A DNA stretch of 52,461 nucleotides from Prochlorococcus sp. AG-402-P16 (GTDB lineage Bacteria > Cyanobacteriota > Cyanobacteriia > PCC-6307 > Cyanobiaceae). Made by a program: the position numbers and the translations under genes. The notes below the pieces were generated by a model. That model did no database searches. It saw only the letters and a list, made by a program, of their open reading frames with translations, and was not told the DNA's origin. Every line of letters starts with the position of its first letter. Within the stretch, counting starts at the first letter, position 1. This document shows, piece by piece, positions 4,156 to 20,028 of this stretch. The DNA is taken from positions 1-52,461 of the forward strand of contig QCJB01000011.1 in assembly GCA_003216295.1 (NCBI GenBank), in the 5' to 3' direction.

Positions 4156-4189
4156 AAATAAGAAAATCAAATAAGGACACAAGACATTA

Positions 4190-4267
4190 AATGTTTCACT
4201 CAGAAATGATGATTTACCTGAAATGATTAAGGAGTATTCAGATAAATTACAAAGAATTAAACTCTAA
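4190..4267 (+). pseudogene. Remnant of the small ribbon-helix-helix-like ORF
   Basis: In frame, 4190-4267 encodes NVSLRNDDLPEMIKEYSDKL followed by five residues and TAA. It matches residues 9 to about 27 of the intact 50-residue protein at 8802-8954 (NVSLRNDDLPQLIEEYLEKF). The start codon and N-terminal residues are lost (the upstream frame lacks an ATG and has indels), and the C-terminal half is gone. It sits 35 bp after the TPR-GT41 gene, matching the position of the intact copy after the TPR-dioxygenase gene. Confidence 0.75.
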
Positions 4268-4619: not shown

Positions 4620-4639
4620 AATAAGAACGGAGAGGGAGG
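4620..4639 (-). repeat. Attachment-site copy: 3' end of tRNA-Ser (20 bp)
   Basis: The 20-mer aataagaacggagagggagg is identical to 10320-10339, which covers the last 12 bases of tRNA-Ser (3' acceptor strand with its discriminator, and the edge of the T stem) plus 8 bases of 3' flank. Same orientation as the tRNA. The preceding bases are also alike (accaa before it here, accaaa at the tRNA). This is expected at the far end of an element integrated at the tRNA 3' end. Confidence 0.85.
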
Positions 4640-4710: not shown

Positions 4711-4731
4711 CACCCAACATCCCACCCAACA
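4711..4731 (-). repeat. Pair of 9-bp direct repeats with 12-nt period (putative recombinase arm sites)
   Basis: cacccaaca occurs at 4711-4719 and 4723-4731 (TGTTGGGTG on the minus strand). The pair begins 72 bp after the end of the attachment-site copy at 4620-4639. The same layout occurs at 5577-5596 after the next copy. Function as integrase or excisionase arm sites is inferred from spacing and position. Confidence 0.7.
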
Positions 4732-4835
4732 CAATTCTATTTAAGGAGCACAATTACTGTCTAAAATATACCTTCAAAATGAAGTGAGGGTCTCAAGGTC
4801 GCTGAAGCAGCAGGGTCCCTTTCTTAATGCAAAAA

Positions 4836-5006
4836 TTAAGGTTTCCAATACTCATCCCATTCATCCTGAAGTTCTTTCTGCGATAAAGAGTTGTAGAAAC
4901 CTCTCCACTTCTTTTCTGAATTTGCGTCAGTTACACTCAATGAAACCATTAGATCTATTGCTTCTTCTTTTGTAAAGGATTTACCTTGATTTGATTTGAA
5001 TATCAC
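4836..5006 (-). CDS. Hypothetical 56-residue acidic protein
   Basis: A GTG at 5004-5006 directly follows the TAA stop of the upstream 76-residue gene (sequence taaGTG), giving a 56-residue frame ending at the TAA at 4836-4838. The product includes FTKEEAIDLMVSLSVTDANS and a Trp-rich acidic end (ELQDEWDEYWKP). Amphipathic, charged and low in repeats, it looks like real coding sequence, not a shadow. No ATG lies near the start, so translation probably depends on termination-reinitiation from the 76-residue gene. Alternatively the two frames were one gene split by the stop. Family not recognised. Confidence 0.6.
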   Translation of the reverse strand: MIFKSNQGKSFTKEEAIDLMVSLSVTDANSEKKWRGFYNSLSQKELQDEWDEYWKP

Positions 5007-5237
5007 TTACGAAGCAATCTCTTCCCAAGGCTCACGTGAAGACAGTTCCTTGAATGGTATCAATTTAAAATCACCTCTCCTGATACCACTACATATCAAT
5101 CCATCTGGATGTTCTCTCTTAAATATTTCAACTGCATCTTCTTTTCGTTCCGATGGAATCGTGACTTTATAAATCACATCACCTGAATCACGAATCTTAT
5201 AAACAAAAATCCAATCATATTCTTTACTATCCATCAT
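5007..5237 (-). CDS. Hypothetical 76-residue protein
   Basis: 76 residues from two consecutive ATG codons (5237 and 5234). The sequence has a plausible alternating strand-helix-strand pattern: YDWIFVYKIRDSGDVIYKVT, a helix KEDAVEIFKREHPD, then LICSGIRRGDFKLIPF. No signal peptide, membrane segment or catalytic motif is visible. It forms a two-gene unit with the 56-residue ORF that starts immediately after its stop. The pair is the only coding cargo between attachment-site copies 4620 and 5490. Function unknown. Confidence 0.65.
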   Translation of the reverse strand: MMDSKEYDWIFVYKIRDSGDVIYKVTIPSERKEDAVEIFKREHPDGLICSGIRRGDFKLIPFKELSSREPWEEIAS

Positions 5238-5361
5238 CAGTTCATGCTGACTAACTTTGTTTTAACTCACTTTGGTCTGATGAACCAATTACACAAATGG
5301 AAACAGGTGTTTTCTCTCATGTTCCAATGATTTTGTTTGATTAGAAATGGGTTGGAGTTCT
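5238..5361. other. Upstream region of the two small genes and of the small-RNA candidate
   Basis: This stretch must hold the minus-strand promoter of the 76-residue gene and the plus-strand promoter of the small-RNA candidate. No close match to a TTGACA/TATAAT pair is visible in either direction. Confidence 0.4.
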
Positions 5362-5475
5362 AGCACTTGTCTTCCCGTAGGTCAGGGAAGTGGTTAGTTA
5401 AAGGGAATCGGATTGTTCACATGGATATACAAGTGCTGAACTTAAAGGGGGCAACCAAAATCTTGCCCCCTTCTT
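5362..5475 (+). ncRNA. Candidate structured small RNA ending in a strong terminator
   Basis: No ORF covers this stretch, but the plus strand shows nested pairing. A closing stem pairs agcacttg (5362-5369) with caagtgct (5430-5437), 8 of 8 pairs. Inside it cttccc (5371-5376) pairs with gggaag (5385-5390) around an 8-base loop. A few bases later comes a 10-bp terminator stem (5445-5472) followed by tctttaa. The 5' end is not defined and no clear promoter was found, so transcription is inferred. It ends 15 bp before an attachment-site copy, so it sits at the very end of an element. A long terminator leader from readthrough is the alternative. Confidence 0.5.
5445..5472 (+). terminator. Rho-independent terminator
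   Basis: Perfect 10-bp stem aagggggcaa / ttgccccctt with the 8-base loop ccaaaatc, followed by tctttaa. It is the most stable hairpin of the island. No protein gene on the plus strand leads into it, which suggests an untranslated transcript or insulation of the element boundary just downstream. Confidence 0.85.
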
Positions 5476-5489
5476 TAATGGAAGAAATT

Positions 5490-5506
5490 AAGAACGGAGA
5501 GGGAGT
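5490..5506 (-). repeat. Attachment-site copy: 3' end of tRNA-Ser (17 bp)
   Basis: taagaacggagagggag is identical to 10322-10338 at the tRNA-Ser 3' end and to 4622-4638. With the tRNA it brackets the 4.8-kb segment carrying the AlpA-like fragment, Rep-like pseudogene, TPR-dioxygenase and FkbM genes. A diverged partial duplicate (taaagaacggcagcgg) follows at about 5524-5539. Confidence 0.82.
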
Positions 5507-5552
5507 CCGTTAGTGGCGAACCATAAAGAACGGCAGCGGAAGGGAATGAACT

Positions 5553-5618
5553 AATAAAGGGAGAAATACCTTTATTCCCCCCACATTTCCCCCCACGCAG
5601 GAAAAATGTTAATTAAGA
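5553..5618. repeat. Element head: hairpin, 12-nt-period repeats and 17-bp box
   Basis: First a perfect 8-bp stem aataaagg/cctttatt (5553-5560, 5569-5576). Next the direct repeats ccccccac at 5577-5584 and 5589-5596, a 12-nt period starting 71 bp after the attachment-site copy. Then the 17-mer aaaaatgttaattaaga at 5602-5618, also present at 2021-2037. The repeat pair has the same layout as 4711-4731 (72 bp from its own copy), which argues for a common recombinase-binding arrangement. Confidence 0.65.
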
Positions 5619-5656
5619 AGAATTCTCTAACTAAAGAGAATAGAGGAGCAAACTTC

Positions 5657-5685
5657 TTGCTATTACTGGAAGTTTGTGCTATAAT
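5657..5685 (+). promoter_or_regulatory. Strong sigma-70-type promoter with extended -10
   Basis: TTGCTA at 5657-5662, a 17-base spacer, and TATAAT at 5680-5685 preceded by TGC (an extended -10). It is the best consensus promoter in the island and points at the AlpA-like ORF (5758) and the Rep-like pseudogene (5863). The leader of about 70 nt is untranslated apart from short frames. Confidence 0.8.
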
Positions 5686-5757
5686 GTATTCATCTGAAAC
5701 AAAGATATACCTCAAAAAGGTTTAGAAGTTCAGTATTTTATTTTCGCTTTAATTATT

Positions 5758-5832
5758 ATGAAATTAACCGATAGGTTACTTCGTTTGCCCGAAGTAATGG
5801 AAAGAGTTCCATACAAAAAAACAATAAGATGA
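5758..5832 (+). pseudogene. Truncated AlpA-family excisionase/regulator-like ORF (24 residues)
   Basis: The ATG at 5758 encodes MKLTDRLLRLPEVMERVPYK followed by KTIR and a TGA at 5830. The segment RLLRLPEVMERVPYKKT matches the opening of AlpA-type MerR-like winged-helix proteins (RLLRL-x-EV-x-x-x-x-x-x-S-x-x-TIYRLI), which act as phage or element excisionases and regulators. The rest of the domain, from the recognition helix on, is missing, probably through a deletion or frameshift near the seven-A run at 5815-5821. A perfect hairpin (ttacttcg/cgaagtaa, 5776-5797) lies inside it. Family assignment is by motif only. Confidence 0.55.
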
Positions 5833-5862
5833 GATAAGTTTTCAATAGAGATCAATTAAGTT

Positions 5863-6533
5863 ATGTTAGGTAATTCTATTAATTACGCTGAGAGAGTTGA
5901 AGAGAGTAGGCAAGTAGAGAAGATAAAGAAAGTATTGATTACACAGGCATCTGAGTTCCTACCTTCTTATTATGCTGTTTGTTATTATGGTAAATCTTCT
6001 TCTGGCAGATTATTAAAACCTGAAGAATATAGAAAAAGATGGGATAGAAACGAAGTTATTAAAACTCATAAGTTTATTAGTAATAGAGTTAGAAAATGTT
6101 TTGGTGATATTCCTTTATTTTAGTTTAGTAATAGGCACGATGATTATGAGGGTATTGAGGGCAACTGTAAGAAGGGTTCTTTTCATTCCGATCTCTACAT
6201 AGGTGAAATACCAAACGAAGCGATTACAACGCCTTCTAATACCCTCTTAGAACTCTTAGGTAAATCAGACCAATCAGGGATTCCGATAAATATCAAAGAG
6301 GTAGGAATGAGAGCGTTAAAACTTCTTTTATTGGAATTGTGTATCAGAGAAGCGAAGTGGATAGAGAAGCATCCCAACTCACTAAAACTTCAGAGAGTTC
6401 CAATAGAAGAGTTTTCGCAAACCTTTGACTATGGGTTAAAGGACATAACAAATTGGATGACTTCAATCAAGTATTTGATTGGGAAAATAGTTCTTTTTAT
6501 CACGCAAGCACTAAGAACTTAAATAAAACCTGA
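5863..6533 (+). pseudogene. Broken element gene, possibly a Rep-like protein (nonsense codon plus frameshift)
   Basis: The first 86 residues (ATG 5863) end at TAG 6121-6123 after GDIPLF. The same frame then stays open without a start codon for 132 more codons, with good protein character: FSNRHDDYEGIEGN, KKGSFHSDLYIGEIPNEA, LLLLELCIREAKWIEKHPNS. Near 6450 the protein-like sequence switches frame to KLDDFNQVFDWENSSFYHAS and ends at TGA 6531, consistent with a one-base deletion. The TAG would be TGG (Trp) with one base restored. The HDDYE and GSFHSDL elements recall the histidine motifs of small HUH-type replication proteins, but that is a weak resemblance. Its place behind an AlpA-like ORF and beside an attachment site supports a mobility or replication role. 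Confidence 0.6.
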
Positions 6534-6562
6534 TATATTAACCGCATATTAGGATTTAAGAC

Positions 6563-8620
6563 TTGGAAGCAAATATAGAAACAGCTCAATCGCTCTTTCA
6601 ACAAAATAAATATCAAGAAACAATTGATACCTGTAATCAAATATTAGCTACGGATAGCAATTCAGTAGAAGCTATAAAATTAAACGCAAAATCTTTTTTA
6701 GCAACAAGAAAGATAGATGATGCCCGTTTATATTTAAATAAAGCTCTTAATATTAAGCCTGATGATTGTGAAGTAATTAAAGATCTAGGTAATACCTATC
6801 AAGCTATTGGCGATGCTAATACTGCTAAAACCTATTATCAAAAAGCAATAGCCATAAATAATTCTTACGCTCCAGCATTAACTAATCTTGGGAGCATTGA
6901 ACTCAATACAGGCAACAAACAAGAAGGATTATCTTTATTAATCAAAGCGACTGAATATGATACTCAATTAGCTCCTGCTTGGGGAAACCTTGCCAATGGT
7001 TATATTCAACTCGGAAAGACGAGAGAGGCTGAAATTGCCTGCCGCAAATCAATAGAACTTAACCCCAATCTCTTTAACTCTCATTTCCTTCTTGGAACAA
7101 TTCTCCTTGGGCAAAAGAAACTTCAAGAAGCAGAAATATCAACTCGCAAATCAATAGAACTTAACCCCAATCTCTTTAACTCTCATTTCCTTCTTGGAAC
7201 AATTCTCCTTGGGCAAAAGAAACTTCAAGAAGCAGAATTGTCACATCGCAAAGCAATTGAACTTAATCCTGCTTTCGCAGATGCTCATCTAAACCTTGGA
7301 GTGGTTTTAAAAGAACTTGGAAAACTACAAGAAGCAGAATTGTCATACCGCAAAGCAATTGAACTTAAAACTGATTACGCAGAAGCTCATCTAAATCTGG
7401 GAAGCATATTGATAGATCTTGGCAAATTAAAAGAAGCAGAAGTCTCGACTCGAAAAGCAATTGAACTTAATCCTGATGAAGCTGATGTTCATTTAAATCT
7501 GGGAATCATTTTGAGAGATCTTGGCAAATTAAAAGAAGCAGAAATATCAACTCGCAAAGCAATTGAAATTAAAACTGATTTAGCTGAAGCTCATAACAGT
7601 TTAGGATATATACTCCTTGAAAAAGGTAACTATGAGTCATCCTTAAAATATTTTTCAGAAAGTGCTGAGTTACTAAGAGGACAAAAAAAGAAAGAATTTA
7701 ATAACTCAAAATTCACTCAAATAAGTAAGGCTAAAATTTATCATGACATTGAGCAATTTGACTATTTAGTATCGCAAGGTTACGAGACGAAAAAATTTAA
7801 TGATCTTGCCATTCTTTATAAAAAAGTTGCCGCTGAAATCAAGTGGCCATCAGAAACGCAATTGATTTCACTAAGTCATAAATATCTAAGCCTTCTTAAA
7901 AGAAGTTATAATCATCTAATACATCTAATAAAGGCACCTACAGTTAAGAACGGAGCAGTCAATAATTCATTAAATGTCGAGAAAATTACAAATCATTATT
8001 TCGATCATGAGTTCGGATTAACTTACATTGATGATTTCTTAAGTCCTACAGCAATAGATTCACTTAGAAAATTCCTACTTGGAAGCACAATTTGGTTTGA
8101 AATCAAAAAAGGTGGATATCTGGGAGCTTATTTAAAAGAAGGTTTAGCTAGTCCTTTAATAATACAAATAGCAAATGAATTAAGTCAGAAGTTCCCAAAA
8201 ATTTTCAAAGATCATCCAATTAACCAAATATGGGCTTTCAAGTATGATAGCCGTGCTAAAAATAAAAATTCATCTCTCAAAGGCATCAATGTTCACGCAG
8301 ATTTCGCAGCAGTAAATGTAAACTTTTGGATTACGCCTAAAGAAGCCAACTTAAATCCCAATTCTGGTGGTTTAATCGTTTACGACGTAGAAGCACCTAA
8401 AGAATGGAATTTTAAGACTTATAATAATGATGAGCAGAAAATACGAGAAGAACTAAAAAAAAGTAAAGGCAATACAAAAGTAATTCCATATAACGAAAAC
8501 CGTGCGGTTATCTTCAATTCAAATTTATTTCATGAAACTGATAAATACGAATTCAAAGAAGGCTATGAGAATCGTCGAATCAATGTCACCATTTTATTTG
8601 GAAAAAGACATAATAGGTAG
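6563..8620 (+). CDS. TPR protein with C-terminal 2-oxoglutarate/Fe(II) oxygenase domain
   Basis: 685 residues from a TTG start at 6563, with AGGA eight bases upstream; there is no ATG near the N-terminus. Residues 1 to about 375 hold about eleven TPR units. The last 200 residues look like a 2OG-Fe(II) dioxygenase: an iron-binding H-x-D (His578, Asp580 in GINVHADFAA), NVNFWITP, NSGGLIVYD, the distal His657 in NRAVIFNSNLFHETD and the 2OG-contacting arginine region in RRINVTILFG. Such enzymes hydroxylate proteins or small molecules. The TPR array may choose the substrate. It contains a 102-bp tandem duplication. A 50-residue RHH-like ORF follows. Confidence 0.88.
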   Translation: MEANIETAQSLFQQNKYQETIDTCNQILATDSNSVEAIKLNAKSFLATRKIDDARLYLNKALNIKPDDCEVIKDLGNTYQAIGDANTAKTYYQKAIAINNSYAPALTNLGSIELNTGNKQEGLSLLIKATEYDTQLAPAWGNLANGYIQLGKTREAEIACRKSIELNPNLFNSHFLLGTILLGQKKLQEAEISTRKSIELNPNLFNSHFLLGTILLGQKKLQEAELSHRKAIELNPAFADAHLNLGVVLKELGKLQEAELSYRKAIELKTDYAEAHLNLGSILIDLGKLKEAEVSTRKAIELNPDEADVHLNLGIILRDLGKLKEAEISTRKAIEIKTDLAEAHNSLGYILLEKGNYESSLKYFSESAELLRGQKKKEFNNSKFTQISKAKIYHDIEQFDYLVSQGYETKKFNDLAILYKKVAAEIKWPSETQLISLSHKYLSLLKRSYNHLIHLIKAPTVKNGAVNNSLNVEKITNHYFDHEFGLTYIDDFLSPTAIDSLRKFLLGSTIWFEIKKGGYLGAYLKEGLASPLIIQIANELSQKFPKIFKDHPINQIWAFKYDSRAKNKNSSLKGINVHADFAAVNVNFWITPKEANLNPNSGGLIVYDVEAPKEWNFKTYNNDEQKIREELKKSKGNTKVIPYNENRAVIFNSNLFHETDKYEFKEGYENRRINVTILFGKRHNR
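7043..7237 (+). repeat. 102-bp tandem duplication of one TPR unit
   Basis: 7043-7135 and 7145-7237 are identical over 93 bp at a spacing of exactly 102 bp, one 34-residue TPR unit. Identity at synonymous positions shows the duplication is recent. Closely related units (same NLFNSHFLL peptide) open the partial TPR gene at the left window edge. Confidence 0.92.
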
Positions 8621-8801
8621 CTTATTTTACGAAGCAATTGGCTGTGAAATTAATAGGAATATAACTAAAAAAGTAATAACAAACCAACTTACAAAACTGG
8701 GCAAAATTCGAAGAGAAGCATCCAAATACTTTCAGAACAATGTATCAATTCTGGGTTTATAAAGGCGAATAAATAATTAGGCTAAAGACGAGAAAAATTA
8801 A

Positions 8802-8954
8802 ATGACAGCACAAGGCATTTACATAAATGTTTCACTTAGAAATGATGACCTACCTCAATTAATTGAGGAGTATTTAGAAAAGTTCAACCTATCCAAAGCG
8901 GATACTGTTGCTGAGATTCTTAGAGCGTATCCAAAACTTCTTGCTTACATGTGA
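8802..8954 (+). CDS. Small ribbon-helix-helix-like protein (50 residues)
   Basis: ATG 8802 to TGA 8952-8954. The sequence begins MTAQGIYINVSLRNDDLPQL and ends LSKADTVAEILRAYPKLLAY plus Met. A short strand (IYINVSLR) followed by two helices (DLPQLIEEYLEKF and SKADTVAEILRAY) fits the CopG/Arc ribbon-helix-helix fold, whose dimers bind operator DNA. That function is inferred. A decayed homologue follows the other TPR-enzyme gene (4190-4267), so the ORF seems to travel with these genes. It could regulate the element or the TPR gene. Confidence 0.65.
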   Translation: MTAQGIYINVSLRNDDLPQLIEEYLEKFNLSKADTVAEILRAYPKLLAYM

Positions 8955-8989
8955 ACTGGATAGAACCTGTCAATTGTTGAGGGATTTTG

Positions 8990-9010
8990 CCAACAACATT
9001 CCCAACAACA
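8990..9010 (-). repeat. Pair of 9-bp direct repeats with 12-nt period
   Basis: ccaacaaca at 8990-8998 and 9002-9010 (TGTTGTTGG on the minus strand). Same 12-nt period and similar core as the repeats at 4711, 5577 and 10194, but with no tRNA-end copy beside it. It lies between the RHH-like ORF and the FkbM gene, possibly an internal element junction or another recombinase or regulator site. Confidence 0.55.
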
Positions 9011-9063
9011 CACGCTTGACTTAGTATGAAACCACCTGACTCCAATTGACCCGCTCTATTCAG

Positions 9064-9945
9064 TCATATCATTAGTTTTTCTGAAGGATGAAAAGATGAA
9101 TCCGTTACTTCCATCAAACCTATTTTAGTTTTGATTTCCTTTCGGAATCCAATCATATTAAAGTGATAAAAATGTTTGAAAATATTATTGGTATTTTTAA
9201 AAAAATTATTTTCATTGTAATAAGGTTGGATATGCCAAAACAATTTATAATCAAGGGACCATAATAGTTCAATCAATTCTTGCGATTTCTCTTTATAAAC
9301 TAAATCATTCTCTACATATAAAATTGGTTTGGTTCTCTTAATCAAGTCAAAACCACCTTTTAAAACATTCACTTCCATTCCTTCAGCGTCTGTCTTTAAA
9401 AGTTTTAAACTTTGCAGATTACTAAATTTATTATCCAAAGTATCAACATTTGCCTCATAAAATTTAATTCTATCTCTTGAATTATCTATATTATCGTAAT
9501 AGTTTTTATTTCGTATAAAAGACATTGCTGCAAAGTTTTGCTCTGCATTAAAATTATAATTTAGATTATATAATTTTTCATCTATTTTATCTGTTAAAGC
9601 ACATTGAAAGCAAAAACAATTTGTTATTGAATTAATAGAAATATTTGCACAAAGATTTTGGAAAACTACATTCTGTGGTTCAAAAGCATAAATCATACCT
9701 TGATTAACAATTCTAGAAAGAGGAAGAGTAAGACTTCCAATATTTGAACCAACTTCAATTATGGAATCATTAGGTTTCAGAATTTGTTTTAATAGATCAA
9801 TTTCTCCAAGCGACCATTCCCCATATTCTTTGATGCTTTTCCCAACATAAGAATCATTCTTGTTATAAATCATCCAACCATCTCTCATTTTAATTAGATC
9901 GCTGAAACCTCCAAGAGAGATGAATTCTTTATTTTCTATATCCAA
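9064..9945 (-). CDS. FkbM-family SAM-dependent methyltransferase
   Basis: 293 residues from a TTG at 9945, the longest form. An in-frame ATG at 9885 (residue 21) is an alternative; upstream ribosome-binding signals are weak for both. The methyltransferase core is clear: IIEVGSNIGSLTLPLSR (SAM-binding motif I), MIYAFEPQNVVFQNLCANIS, the FkbM signature LLKTDAEGMEVNVLKGG, and KPILYVEND. FkbM enzymes O-methylate sugars or small molecules, often in surface-polysaccharide or glycan gene sets. In this island it could methylate a glycan made by the GT41 protein, which is speculation. It faces the TPR-dioxygenase unit. Confidence 0.88.
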   Translation of the reverse strand: MDIENKEFISLGGFSDLIKMRDGWMIYNKNDSYVGKSIKEYGEWSLGEIDLLKQILKPNDSIIEVGSNIGSLTLPLSRIVNQGMIYAFEPQNVVFQNLCANISINSITNCFCFQCALTDKIDEKLYNLNYNFNAEQNFAAMSFIRNKNYYDNIDNSRDRIKFYEANVDTLDNKFSNLQSLKLLKTDAEGMEVNVLKGGFDLIKRTKPILYVENDLVYKEKSQELIELLWSLDYKLFWHIQPYYNENNFFKNTNNIFKHFYHFNMIGFRKEIKTKIGLMEVTDSSFHPSEKLMI

Positions 9946-10327
9946 GAATCTTGTTAGGGAGTTTGCAAGGTACTAGCAAATATATACCCTCTATACTTCT
10001 TTAGGTATATCTTTCCTAGTTTTCATACAAATTAAAATTAAAAAAACCATAAATTCAAATAGTTTTTCCTGGTTCCAGAAAAAATATACCAACAACAGAT
10101 TCTTTAAAACTGCTTGCAGCGAATAAATGGATCTCAAGGAATTACCAACTAATACTTAATACAACTGATCTCACCCAACACAAGATTGTTTCTCACCCAA
10201 CATTTCACCCAACAAAATATTGAACTGTATGCAACAGTATGGGTACATCTGAATCAATCTATTTCGTTATATCTAGTCACTGTCAGGCGTTTGAGTCGTT
10301 ATGAAGCATCCTGAACCAAAATAAGAA
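9946..10327. other. 382-bp non-coding element end next to tRNA-Ser
   Basis: No gene on either strand. Contains the FkbM gene's promoter region, an inverted repeat tatacc/ggtata near 9991-10017, and three CACCCAACA repeats (10172-10214). It ends directly in the 3' flank of tRNA-Ser. Confidence 0.6.
10172..10214 (-). repeat. Three 9-bp CACCCAACA repeats (putative recombinase arm sites)
   Basis: cacccaaca at 10172-10180, 10194-10202 and 10206-10214, with spacings of 22 and 12 nt. The last two repeat the exact unit and 12-nt period found at 4711-4731. They end 106 bp before the tRNA-side attachment site at 10320, so they would form the opposite arm of the element bracketed by 5490 and the tRNA. 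Confidence 0.7.
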
Positions 10328-10339
10328 CGGAGAGGGAGG
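10320..10339 (-). repeat. Attachment site at the tRNA-Ser 3' end
   Basis: The 20-mer shared with 4620-4639, of which 17 bp are also shared with 5490-5506. It spans the tRNA acceptor 3' strand and 8 bp of downstream flank. Copies outside the tRNA are not maintained by tRNA function, so their preservation implies recent origin or selection as recombination sites. Confidence 0.82.
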
Positions 10340-10416
10340 GATTCGAACCCTCGACAGAAGTTACCTCCTGTAACTCCTTAGCAGGGAGCCGCTTTCAACC
10401 ACTCAGCCACCTCTCC
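10328..10416 (-). tRNA. tRNA-Ser(GCT)
   Basis: 89 nt. 7-bp acceptor stem GGAGAGG/CCTCTCC with discriminator G, D-loop GGCTGAGTGGTTGAAAGC, anticodon loop with GCT (CCCTGCTAAGG), a long variable arm typical of tRNA-Ser (ACAGGAGGTAACTTCTGT), and the T arm GAGGGTTCGAATCCCTC. CCA is not encoded. Its 3' end is the attachment site of the island; the gene is intact, as expected when an integrating element restores the tRNA end. Confidence 0.98.
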
Positions 10417-10477
10417 ATAATAAATACCTTATCAAGTAGAAGATCCCAAAAAATATATTGTGATCCTACAAGCATTT

Positions 10478-18138: not shown

Positions 18139-18687
18139 TCAGCCTAAAGCTTTCTCAATACATGAAAACACAACATCTATGTCAGCGTTACCATCAATAC
18201 TTTCAAGTATTCCCTCCTTGCTATATAAATCAATAAGAGGAGCTGTTTTTTCTCTGTATATTTTAAGTCTATTAATTATTACATCTTCATTATCATCCTC
18301 TCTTCCTCTAGCTAAAAGCCTTTTTATTAAATAATCATCAGCAATTTTTAATGAGATAACCGACTCTAAGGGTTGGTTAATTTTTTGTAAGAGTTTTTTT
18401 AAAGCATCCGCTTGATAGATATTCCTAGGAAAGCCATCCAACAACCAACCTTTATTAATCTTCAAAAGTCTCAGCTCAACAATTGAAAGCACTAATTCAT
18501 CACTTACTAATTCTCCTCTGTTCATAATCTCTGCTGCCTTAAGACCTAATAAAGATCCTGAAGAAACCTCATCTCTCAATAAATCTCCCGTTGAAAGATG
18601 ATCTAAACCATATTTTTTACAAAAAAGAGTTGCTTGAGTCCCTTTACCTGCTCCAGGAGGGCCTAGGAATAGTAATTTGTTTTTCAT
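18139..18687 (-). CDS. adk: Adenylate kinase, short form
   Basis: 182 residues, about 30 fewer than E. coli Adk because the LID insertion is reduced. P-loop FLGPPGAGKGTQA, NMP-binding part DHLSTGDLLRDEVSSG, GWLLDGFPRN, and the arginine-bearing LARGREDDNEDVIINRLKIY. Interconverts ATP+AMP and 2 ADP. Adjacent to secY, 21 bp apart, in the usual spc order. Confidence 0.97.
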   Translation of the reverse strand: MKNKLLFLGPPGAGKGTQATLFCKKYGLDHLSTGDLLRDEVSSGSLLGLKAAEIMNRGELVSDELVLSIVELRLLKINKGWLLDGFPRNIYQADALKKLLQKINQPLESVISLKIADDYLIKRLLARGREDDNEDVIINRLKIYREKTAPLIDLYSKEGILESIDGNADIDVVFSCIEKALG

Positions 18688-18708
18688 TTAAAAAGCATCA
18701 TAGAAAGT

Positions 18709-20028
18709 TTATTGTCGGACTAATCCTTCATATCTTTGAGAAATCACATAAGTCTGAACTTGCTTTGATGTATCGATTGCAACTCCCACCAAAATCAATA
18801 ATGAAGTTGCACCGAGTCCCTGAAAAGTTTGAACATTCGTTGCCCTTTCAACTGCAGCAGGAACAATCGCTACTGAACCTAGGAACAGGCCACCAAGCAA
18901 AGTTAATCGATTTTGGACACCTGAAAGATAAGCTGAAGTAGAACTACCAGGCCTAACTCCTGGGATTGCGACACCTCCTTTTTTCAAATTAGAGGCAATG
19001 TCTATTGGATTAATAGTTAAAGAAGCATAAAAATAAGCAAAGCCCAATATCAAGGCAAAGAAAGTTATTGCATATGGCCATGGGTTTGAAGAGCCTGGGT
19101 TAAGTGAACTAGCAGCCTTAATTAATAAAGGATTTTGAGTGAAATTTGCAATCGTAATTGGTAAAAAAATCAATGCAGATGCAAAAATGATAGGCATTAC
19201 ACCACCGGCATTTAACTTAAGAGGAAGATAACTTTGCCTACTTGGCAAAAGAGCGGCCCCTCCCATTTGGCTCTTAGCACTGACTATTGGAATTCTCCTT
19301 GCACCTTCCTGTACGAAAATAATCCCGACGATAGTAATTAAAAAAACTATTAAAAGAATAATTATGCCAAGCACATCCGATCTATCTCCAGTCTGCGCTT
19401 TCTCAATAGTAGAGCTAAGTGCTTTAGGTAAAGTGGCAACAATATTCAAGAAAATAACCAAAGAAGCTCCTTGGCCTATGCCTTTTTCAGTAATAATTTC
19501 ACTCAGCCACATAACTATCATCGACCCAGTAACTAATGCCAAGGCTGTTTGAACAACAAACTCAGTTTCTCCAAGACCTGCAACTGAGTATTGCCTTAAA
19601 ATTAAAGCAAAAACAGTACTTTGAACTAATCCCCAACCCAAGGCTACATAACGAGTTATTTGAGCAATCTTTCTTCTTCCTGCCTCTCCTTCATTCTTCT
19701 GGAGATCCTCCAATTGTGGTAGGGATGCAGTTAGCAACTGAATAATTATTGAGGCGTTAATAAAAGGGAGTATGCCAAGTGCAAAAATTCCCAAAGTTGA
19801 AATTCCACCACCTGTGAAAATATCCAGGAATCCAATTAATTGTCCACCTTGATCAATAAAAGTTTTAAAGGCCTCTCTATCAATTCCAGGCATAGGAATA
19901 TAAATTCCCAACCGAACAATTAACAGAAGACCAAGCGTAGTGATAACTCTTCCCCTAAGCTCCTCATTGCGAAAAAGCTGAGTGACGACCTCACCAGCAC
20001 TTGGATTACGTCCACGGCTTATTAACAT
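18709..20028 (-). CDS. secY: Preprotein translocase subunit SecY
   Basis: 439 residues with ten predicted membrane spans. Signatures: LGIYIPMPGIDREAF, GISTLGIFALGILPFINASI, GIGQGASLVIFLNI, the cytosolic loop with IPIVSAKSQMGG, and LKLNAGGVMPIIFASALIF. Forms the protein-conducting channel of the cytoplasmic and, in cyanobacteria, thylakoid membranes. Placed between rplO and adk. Confidence 0.98.
   Translation of the reverse strand: MLISRGRNPSAGEVVTQLFRNEELRGRVITTLGLLLIVRLGIYIPMPGIDREAFKTFIDQGGQLIGFLDIFTGGGISTLGIFALGILPFINASIIIQLLTASLPQLEDLQKNEGEAGRRKIAQITRYVALGWGLVQSTVFALILRQYSVAGLGETEFVVQTALALVTGSMIVMWLSEIITEKGIGQGASLVIFLNIVATLPKALSSTIEKAQTGDRSDVLGIIILLIVFLITIVGIIFVQEGARRIPIVSAKSQMGGAALLPSRQSYLPLKLNAGGVMPIIFASALIFLPITIANFTQNPLLIKAASSLNPGSSNPWPYAITFFALILGFAYFYASLTINPIDIASNLKKGGVAIPGVRPGSSTSAYLSGVQNRLTLLGGLFLGSVAIVPAAVERATNVQTFQGLGATSLLILVGVAIDTSKQVQTYVISQRYEGLVRQ

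Follow-up and report, generated by a model that had tools for sequence, protein, structure and literature searches.

Tyrosine integrases with an arm-binding domain have been described as a class, the IntSXT/DUF4102 subgroup (PMC8138268), and the attachment site attL has been reported to overlap the int promoter (PMC2951348). In Prochlorococcus, tRNA-bordered islands are known as tycheposons (PMC10872708, PMC11389934), and in additive flexible genomic islands a tRNA serves as the landing site for successive cassettes (PMC4119200). Cis-mobilizable elements (CIMEs) have lost their integration and transfer genes, retain attL and attR, and become stacked at one target gene by tandem accretion (PMC5704250). 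The system considered here is a tRNA-Ser(GCT) island of Prochlorococcus sp. AG-402-P16, located on a stretch of 52,461 nucleotides (contig QCJB01000011.1, contig C11 in our numbering; hereafter the window) of a 1.59-Mb genome that is 83% complete. The island contains direct repeats with a period of 12 nt which are very probably the arm-type sites of a tyrosine integrase carrying the arm-binding domain PF13356/DUF4102. With the IntSXT/DUF4102 subgroup, the elements treated below share N-terminal arm and catalytic domains in their integrases, direct repeats on both sides of a tRNA core, and repeats upstream of int. Like a tycheposon, the island is bordered by a tRNA, with integration at the tRNA gene and a copy of its 3' end at the far side, and as in additive flexible islands the tRNA is a landing site for successive cassettes.

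The 3' end of the tRNA-Ser(GCT) gene (AAGAACGGAGAGGGAG) occurs as exact copies at 4623, 5490 and 10323 of the window, all on the forward strand. The first two are assigned by sequence match (4623..4639, a putative remnant of an attachment-site core, and 5490..5505), while the third (10323..10338) is the attachment core at the 3' end of the tRNA gene itself (10327..10417, reverse strand), the putative integration target. A left-arm pair of CACCCAACA (4711..4731, copies at 4711 and 4723) and a left-arm pair of CCCCCCAC (5577..5596, copies at 5577 and 5589) stand at registered offsets of +83 and +82 from their cores and begin 88 and 87 nt from the start of their own tRNA-end copies. At the other end, a right-arm pair of CACCCAACA (r3 and r4, 10194..10214, copies at 10194 and 10206) has a registered offset of -134 and is preceded by a third right-arm repeat of CACCCAACA (r2, 10172..10180), 22 nt before the pair. 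For an isolated arm pair of CCAACAACA (8990..9010, copies at 8990 and 9002) no core was found nearby; all of these repeats are on the forward strand, and the four pairs have a period of 12. An earlier note on this DNA had reported the four pairs and the third copy, and each is found at the position claimed when the window is read directly; its spacing of 72 and 71 bp from the tRNA-end copies agrees with the 88 and 87 nt measured from the copy start. Its placement of the pairs beside attachment sites holds for those at 4711, 5577 and 10194 and fails for that at 8990, which adjoins no intact tRNA copy.

Exact 9/9 tandems with at least three G or C and a period of 12 number four in the window, all of them within the tRNA-Ser(GCT) island; every other period from 10 to 30 gives zero to three over the whole window. 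A degenerate pattern derived from the four window sites themselves yields these four source sites as exact matches and one more match with three mismatches, compared with a shuffle mean of 0.76 at up to three mismatches. As to random recurrence in the genome, which the earlier note had raised as a concern, the whole 1.59 Mb contains two exact copies of CMCCCAACANNNCMCCCAACA, those at 4711 and 10194, and five more places, 5577 included, match at three mismatches (two such places for the reversed control).

The earlier note had also proposed scanning tRNA-linked islands of other strains, and the layout recurs there. Across 41 searched genomes of the genus, the motif CMMMCMACANNNCMMMCMACA has 32 matches versus none for its reversed control. 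The genus set comprises 35 tRNA-Ser(GCT) loci including the window, 30 tRNA-Ser(CGA) loci and six loci without the tRNA in question, some of these stretches being shorter than 2 kb where the contig ends. Its 65 tRNA-bearing loci provide 135 nonredundant tRNA-end copies, some of them false given the tolerance of up to two mismatches in 13. In a motif-free scan beside these copies, exact period-12 pairs are found on the left-arm side of 32 and on the right-arm side of 24, and controls give 0.5 per 100. Other exact periods occur zero to two times, save for 18 (nine), 21 (eight) and 22 (five) on the right side; the periods 21 and 22 fit extra right-arm repeats, and the nine cases of period 18 are unexplained. 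A looser 8-of-9 match raises other periods, chiefly 15 on the left side (31 cases), which is likewise unexplained. The sequence CCCAACATCTAGCCCAACA and its close variants, common in the genus, were dropped as a candidate, since near-identical flanks in the genomes printed mark them as conserved sequence outside islands.

The position of the repeats relative to the core is nearly constant. After registration, the left pair starts 82-84 bp from the core at 28 of 37 genus sites and seven of eight family sites. The right pair starts between -131 and -136 at 26 of 45 genus sites and between -142 and -145 at a further 14, the remaining five starting at -109, -120, -125, -158 and -158; in the family, 18 of 20 right pairs start at -134 to -136 and the other two at -140 and -157. 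These counts include related genomes as well as collapsed segments, in which a single pair is counted on both sides. Offsets measured by hand in two genomes of another genus are +83 and -123 or -125. The steps of about 10 bp suggest that the helical face is kept while the distance slips by one turn, although some sites misfit. Direct repeats at a fixed distance on both sides of the attachment core are the arrangement expected of arm-type sites.

While geometry is constant, the repeated unit is highly variable and is matched between the ends of an element. There are 54 different 10-letter first units among 110 registered sites (42 among the genus sites), some of which differ only in register or by one base; they include CACCCAACA, CCAACAACA, CCCCCCACA, CCTCACAACA, CCTACAACA, CCCTAGCACA, CCACCAGCA, CCCACATCA and CCAACATG. 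A unit is common to both ends in 15 of 18 adjacent segments (13 from the genus and five from the family), for which shuffling gives a mean of 2.7 and none of 10,000 shuffles reaches 15; the three misses are the window, L038 and L040. Right and left pairs that flank one core, and thus belong to neighbouring elements, have matching units in none of eight cases. Orthogonality maintained by selection was considered and set aside, because the shuffle rate (2.7 of 18) predicts about one match and the absence of any among eight is no proof. Two loci combine units: in the right arm of L229 the outer two repeats are TCCACCAACAC and the inner two TCCCACAACAC, as if two codes were present in one arm region, and an element of genome G040 (L179, 16151 and 19594) has a CAGCAC-type followed by a CATCAC-type unit, in the same mixed order at both ends.

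The same layout is present in elements that encode an integrase. The G040 element, from the same genus, lies at tRNA-Ser(CGA), with repeats less perfect than the 8-of-9 threshold, and encodes a 427-amino-acid (aa) protein with PF00589, PF22022 and the arm DNA-binding domain PF13356; the structure PDB 3ju0, named Phage integrase, matches the N-terminal part of the integrase. Relatives of this protein occur in 89 of 400 family genomes. Among 32 integrase loci, 23 have tRNA-Ser(CGA), three of which are the G040 element (twice) and a fragment; the other 20, chosen by their tRNA, carry the right pair in 19 cases. By eye, four repeats lie between the integrase start and the core in most of the printed sequences of these loci. 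Another 40 integrase loci, more distant than these, can be divided by whether a tRNA-Ser lies within 250 bp: of the 17 where it does, 12 show an exact period-12 repeat between the integrase start and the tRNA, as does one of the 23 where it does not. Both ratios were counted by hand and leave out a distal match in L280; near-identical loci make up many of the 12, and the 23 include a few fragments of integrases. Integrase loci of the genus that have tRNA-Thr, Tyr, Leu, Asp or Pro show no exact 9/9 period-12 pair within 250 nt of the tRNA. At L126, a period-12 tandem of GTTAACTGT at about 4848, near an integrase and tRNA-Leu(TAA), possibly represents arm sites of another integrase.

It is proposed that small elements integrate at tRNA-Ser 3' ends by means of an arm-binding-domain tyrosine integrase. 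Such an element would carry a direct-repeat pair about 83 bp inside one end and, at the other, two to four copies of the same repeat with spacings of about 20, 21 and 12, of which the final pair would begin some 134 bp from the core. Once the element is excised as a circle, the two repeat groups would lie on either side of the core, as is usual for attP, with the N-terminal domain of the integrase on the arms and its catalytic domain on the tRNA core. Each element would be addressed by its own integrase type, because the arm sequence differs while spacing and offset stay fixed.

A comparison of proteins with their repeats suggests, short of proof, that arm domain and arm unit co-vary. In a Mantel test on 17 of 21 loci (excluding L227, a twin of L226; L235, which has no open reading frame (ORF); and the fragments L238 and L239), loci with more distant arm domains also tend to have more distant arm units (r = 0.58; 12 of 5000 permutations). 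At the residue level, an E in the arm-domain strand read as LxxVEP accompanies units that begin with TC, and Y, D or H those that begin with TA or TT. Distinct units starting TC, counted by hand, make up seven of seven with E and one of seven (L237) without, a post hoc pattern from related sequences whose registers were read by eye. Excluded from this count are L235, L239 and L277, which lack the N-terminus; L279 and L280, where no arms were seen; L263, which has no protein; and L259 and L292-L295, whose register is uncertain.

Several observations weigh against assigning the repeats to such an integrase. Catalytic-domain distance also correlates with the arm units (r = 0.50, 0 of 5000; same 17 loci), for which reason the co-variation stays a suggestion; with catalytic distance held fixed, the arm-domain correlation falls to 0.35 (317 of 5000), and this partial value is 0.25 (395 of 5000) without L236 and 0.45 (14 of 5000) without both L236 and L237. 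No exact period-12 pair is present at L127 or L136, each of which has an integrase and, at some point in its 20 kb, a tRNA-Ser(TGA). The window genome, at its 83% completeness, encodes no PF13356 protein and no relative of the query integrase, and no integrase with CACCCAACA arms was found, though the CACCCAACA pair is present in 10 of 400 family genomes. Within the window, the adjacent pairs at 5577 and 10194 differ in unit, and it is the outer pairs at 4711 and 10194 that share CACCCAACA. Neither the integrase scan nor the alignment scan revealed a relative among viral contigs. The two pairless tRNA-Ser(TGA) loci and the catalytic-domain correlation slightly lower our confidence in the integrase assignment, which we nevertheless hold to be very likely correct.

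Sites bound by excisionases, too, are typically direct repeats near attachment sites. A recombination directionality factor of this kind (AlpA-like) would bind the repeats and bend the DNA for excision, an explanation that we consider improbable: the repeats stand on both arms with one unit, the unit tends to vary with the integrase, and no excisionase gene is evident among the ORFs of at least 60 aa in the listed segments, where no search was aimed at such families. The earlier note had left the choice between a tyrosine recombinase and an excisionase open. Fixed offsets, end-matched units and the same layout in integrase-encoding elements support its proposal of tyrosine-recombinase arm sites as the best fit; the excisionase is the less likely option, no search having been aimed at excisionase families.

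A comparably improbable explanation treats the repeats themselves as the recombination core, with cargo swapped between identical repeats of 21-24 bp and the tRNA-end copies as older relics. It draws on six collapsed segments of 193-241 bp, in which a single pair lies between two cores. In L042, L155 and L086, the flank on either side of this pair matches arm flanks of its own side at 82-100%, so that a left-arm and a right-arm flank are clearly joined at the repeat. The case is less clear in L078 (58% and 87%), and the window pair at 8990 is similar: its left flank is weakly left-arm-like (56% versus 42%), and its right flank agrees at 98% identity, over 45 nt, with the right-arm flank of another genome before diverging ahead of the core. 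In L082 and L165 the flank test gives no clear assignment, and the test misplaces some ordinary sites: in its control the assignment was correct for 54 of 59 right-arm and 33 of 39 left-arm sites. Cores of tyrosine and serine recombinases are not typically direct, non-inverted repeats with a 3-nt gap. Furthermore, the integrase-bearing elements sit at the tRNA core, and the collapsed segments can be explained by deletion between two short direct repeats; in the clear cases, one element is read as having lost the stretch between its two identical arm pairs. Least probable of all is that the repeats are iterons or regulatory sites serving a cargo or replication gene and lie near the ends by chance, since the offsets are fixed to the core and kept in segments with unrelated cargo, although the repeats do lie directly upstream of the integrase gene in integrase-bearing elements and may therefore also control that gene.

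If the repeats are integrase arm sites, the island and its matched relatives in the genus appear to lack the enzyme. No PF00589 tyrosine recombinase is encoded in the window, the two PF00589 matches of the genome being on contigs C4 and C2, and ten matched genus segments contain no PF00589 match. These segments measure 0.9-6 kb; eight have one ORF of at least 120 aa, one has none and one has five. According to Pfam, eight segment ORFs comprise two methyltransferases, a tetratricopeptide repeat (TPR) protein, a surface-adhesin-E-like protein and four without a match. Having no recognised integrase, the window island and its matched counterparts are likely to be either decayed elements or passengers, which a cognate integrase supplied from outside could move in trans. 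The unit of a passenger is in some cases identical to that of an integrase-bearing element, as with TCCCACATCACA in L081 and the G040 element. A second element of the window genome, L181 (G000:C10, oriented 18320-19644), is situated at tRNA-Ser(CGA). Its arms are of the TTCCAACATGTT type, with four repeats in the right arm, and its 241-aa ORF has no Pfam match. In two genomes of another genus (L305, 4494-13344, and L306), CACCCAACA arms at tRNA-Ser(TGA) flank a segment of 7.5-8.9 kb; that of L305 contains a type I restriction-modification cluster with HsdM, two specificity subunits and HsdR, plus a YgjP-like gene, and the ORFs of L306 are similar in start and size. A viral origin was examined as a separate candidate and rejected. 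Apart from the two scans of viral contigs that gave no relative, 19 viral stretches contain the exact CACCCAACA pair, and these look unrelated because none has the GGAGAGGG[AT]GG motif within 400 nt.

The cargo of the window island lies between a tRNA-end copy and the tRNA and includes a 685-aa TPR-repeat protein (6563..8620, forward strand) and an FkbM-type methyltransferase (PF05050; 9064..9945, reverse strand); an 86-aa ORF without a Pfam match is located at 5863..6123 on the forward strand. The mismatch between its adjacent left and right pairs indicates that the island is a mosaic. A 61-nt stretch is duplicated at 84% identity at 4188-4248 and 8824-8884, the second copy being within the island. 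A 12-nt piece of the tRNA-end copy (TTAAGAACGGAG) lies inside the TPR gene (7944-7955), by chance or as a relic. A loosely conserved ATGTTATTTAAGGAG-like stretch is observed to the right of several left-arm pairs with different units (for example, at about 4735-4760 of the window).

These elements depart from each of the described systems. Unlike the IntSXT/DUF4102 subgroup, they have units that are hypervariable among the elements of related integrases, with the period of 12, the offsets and the repeat order fixed, and the matched genus segments have no recognised integrase. Unlike tycheposons, for which the accessible portions of the papers do not mention arm sites, the matched segments span 0.9-6 kb, mostly have one main ORF and contain no recognised recombinase. 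Compared with CIMEs, the window island has both ends, yet its make-up is mosaic and it is not traced here to a parent element carrying transfer genes; unlike in CIME accretion, neighbouring elements differ in arm unit (0 of 8 match). No arm-site code is described for additive flexible genomic islands in the accessible part of PMC4119200. Arm-type sites and tRNA islands are thus already known. The hypervariable end-matched code, its invariant geometry and its apparent use by integrase-free passengers may be new, with priority unsettled: no description of such an arm code in small passengers was found in the literature searched, to which most subscription papers did not belong.

Tentatively, and with rather more reserve than conviction, the arm repeats may be regarded as an identity code. 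One clade of tRNA-Ser integrases would have diversified its arm specificity at constant geometry, allowing elements to stack without cross-excision, and integrase-free, often single-gene passengers with a matching code would be moved in trans, as in an integron-like cassette network. In marine cyanobacteria, the ends of small mobile elements would be marked by period-12 pairs at offsets of about +83 and -134 relative to the end of a tRNA-Ser, even where no integrase is present. The movement of integrase-free tRNA islands would become testable, as each passenger predicts its integrase type, and the natural set of integrase-site pairs may be used to learn how an arm-binding domain picks its DNA.

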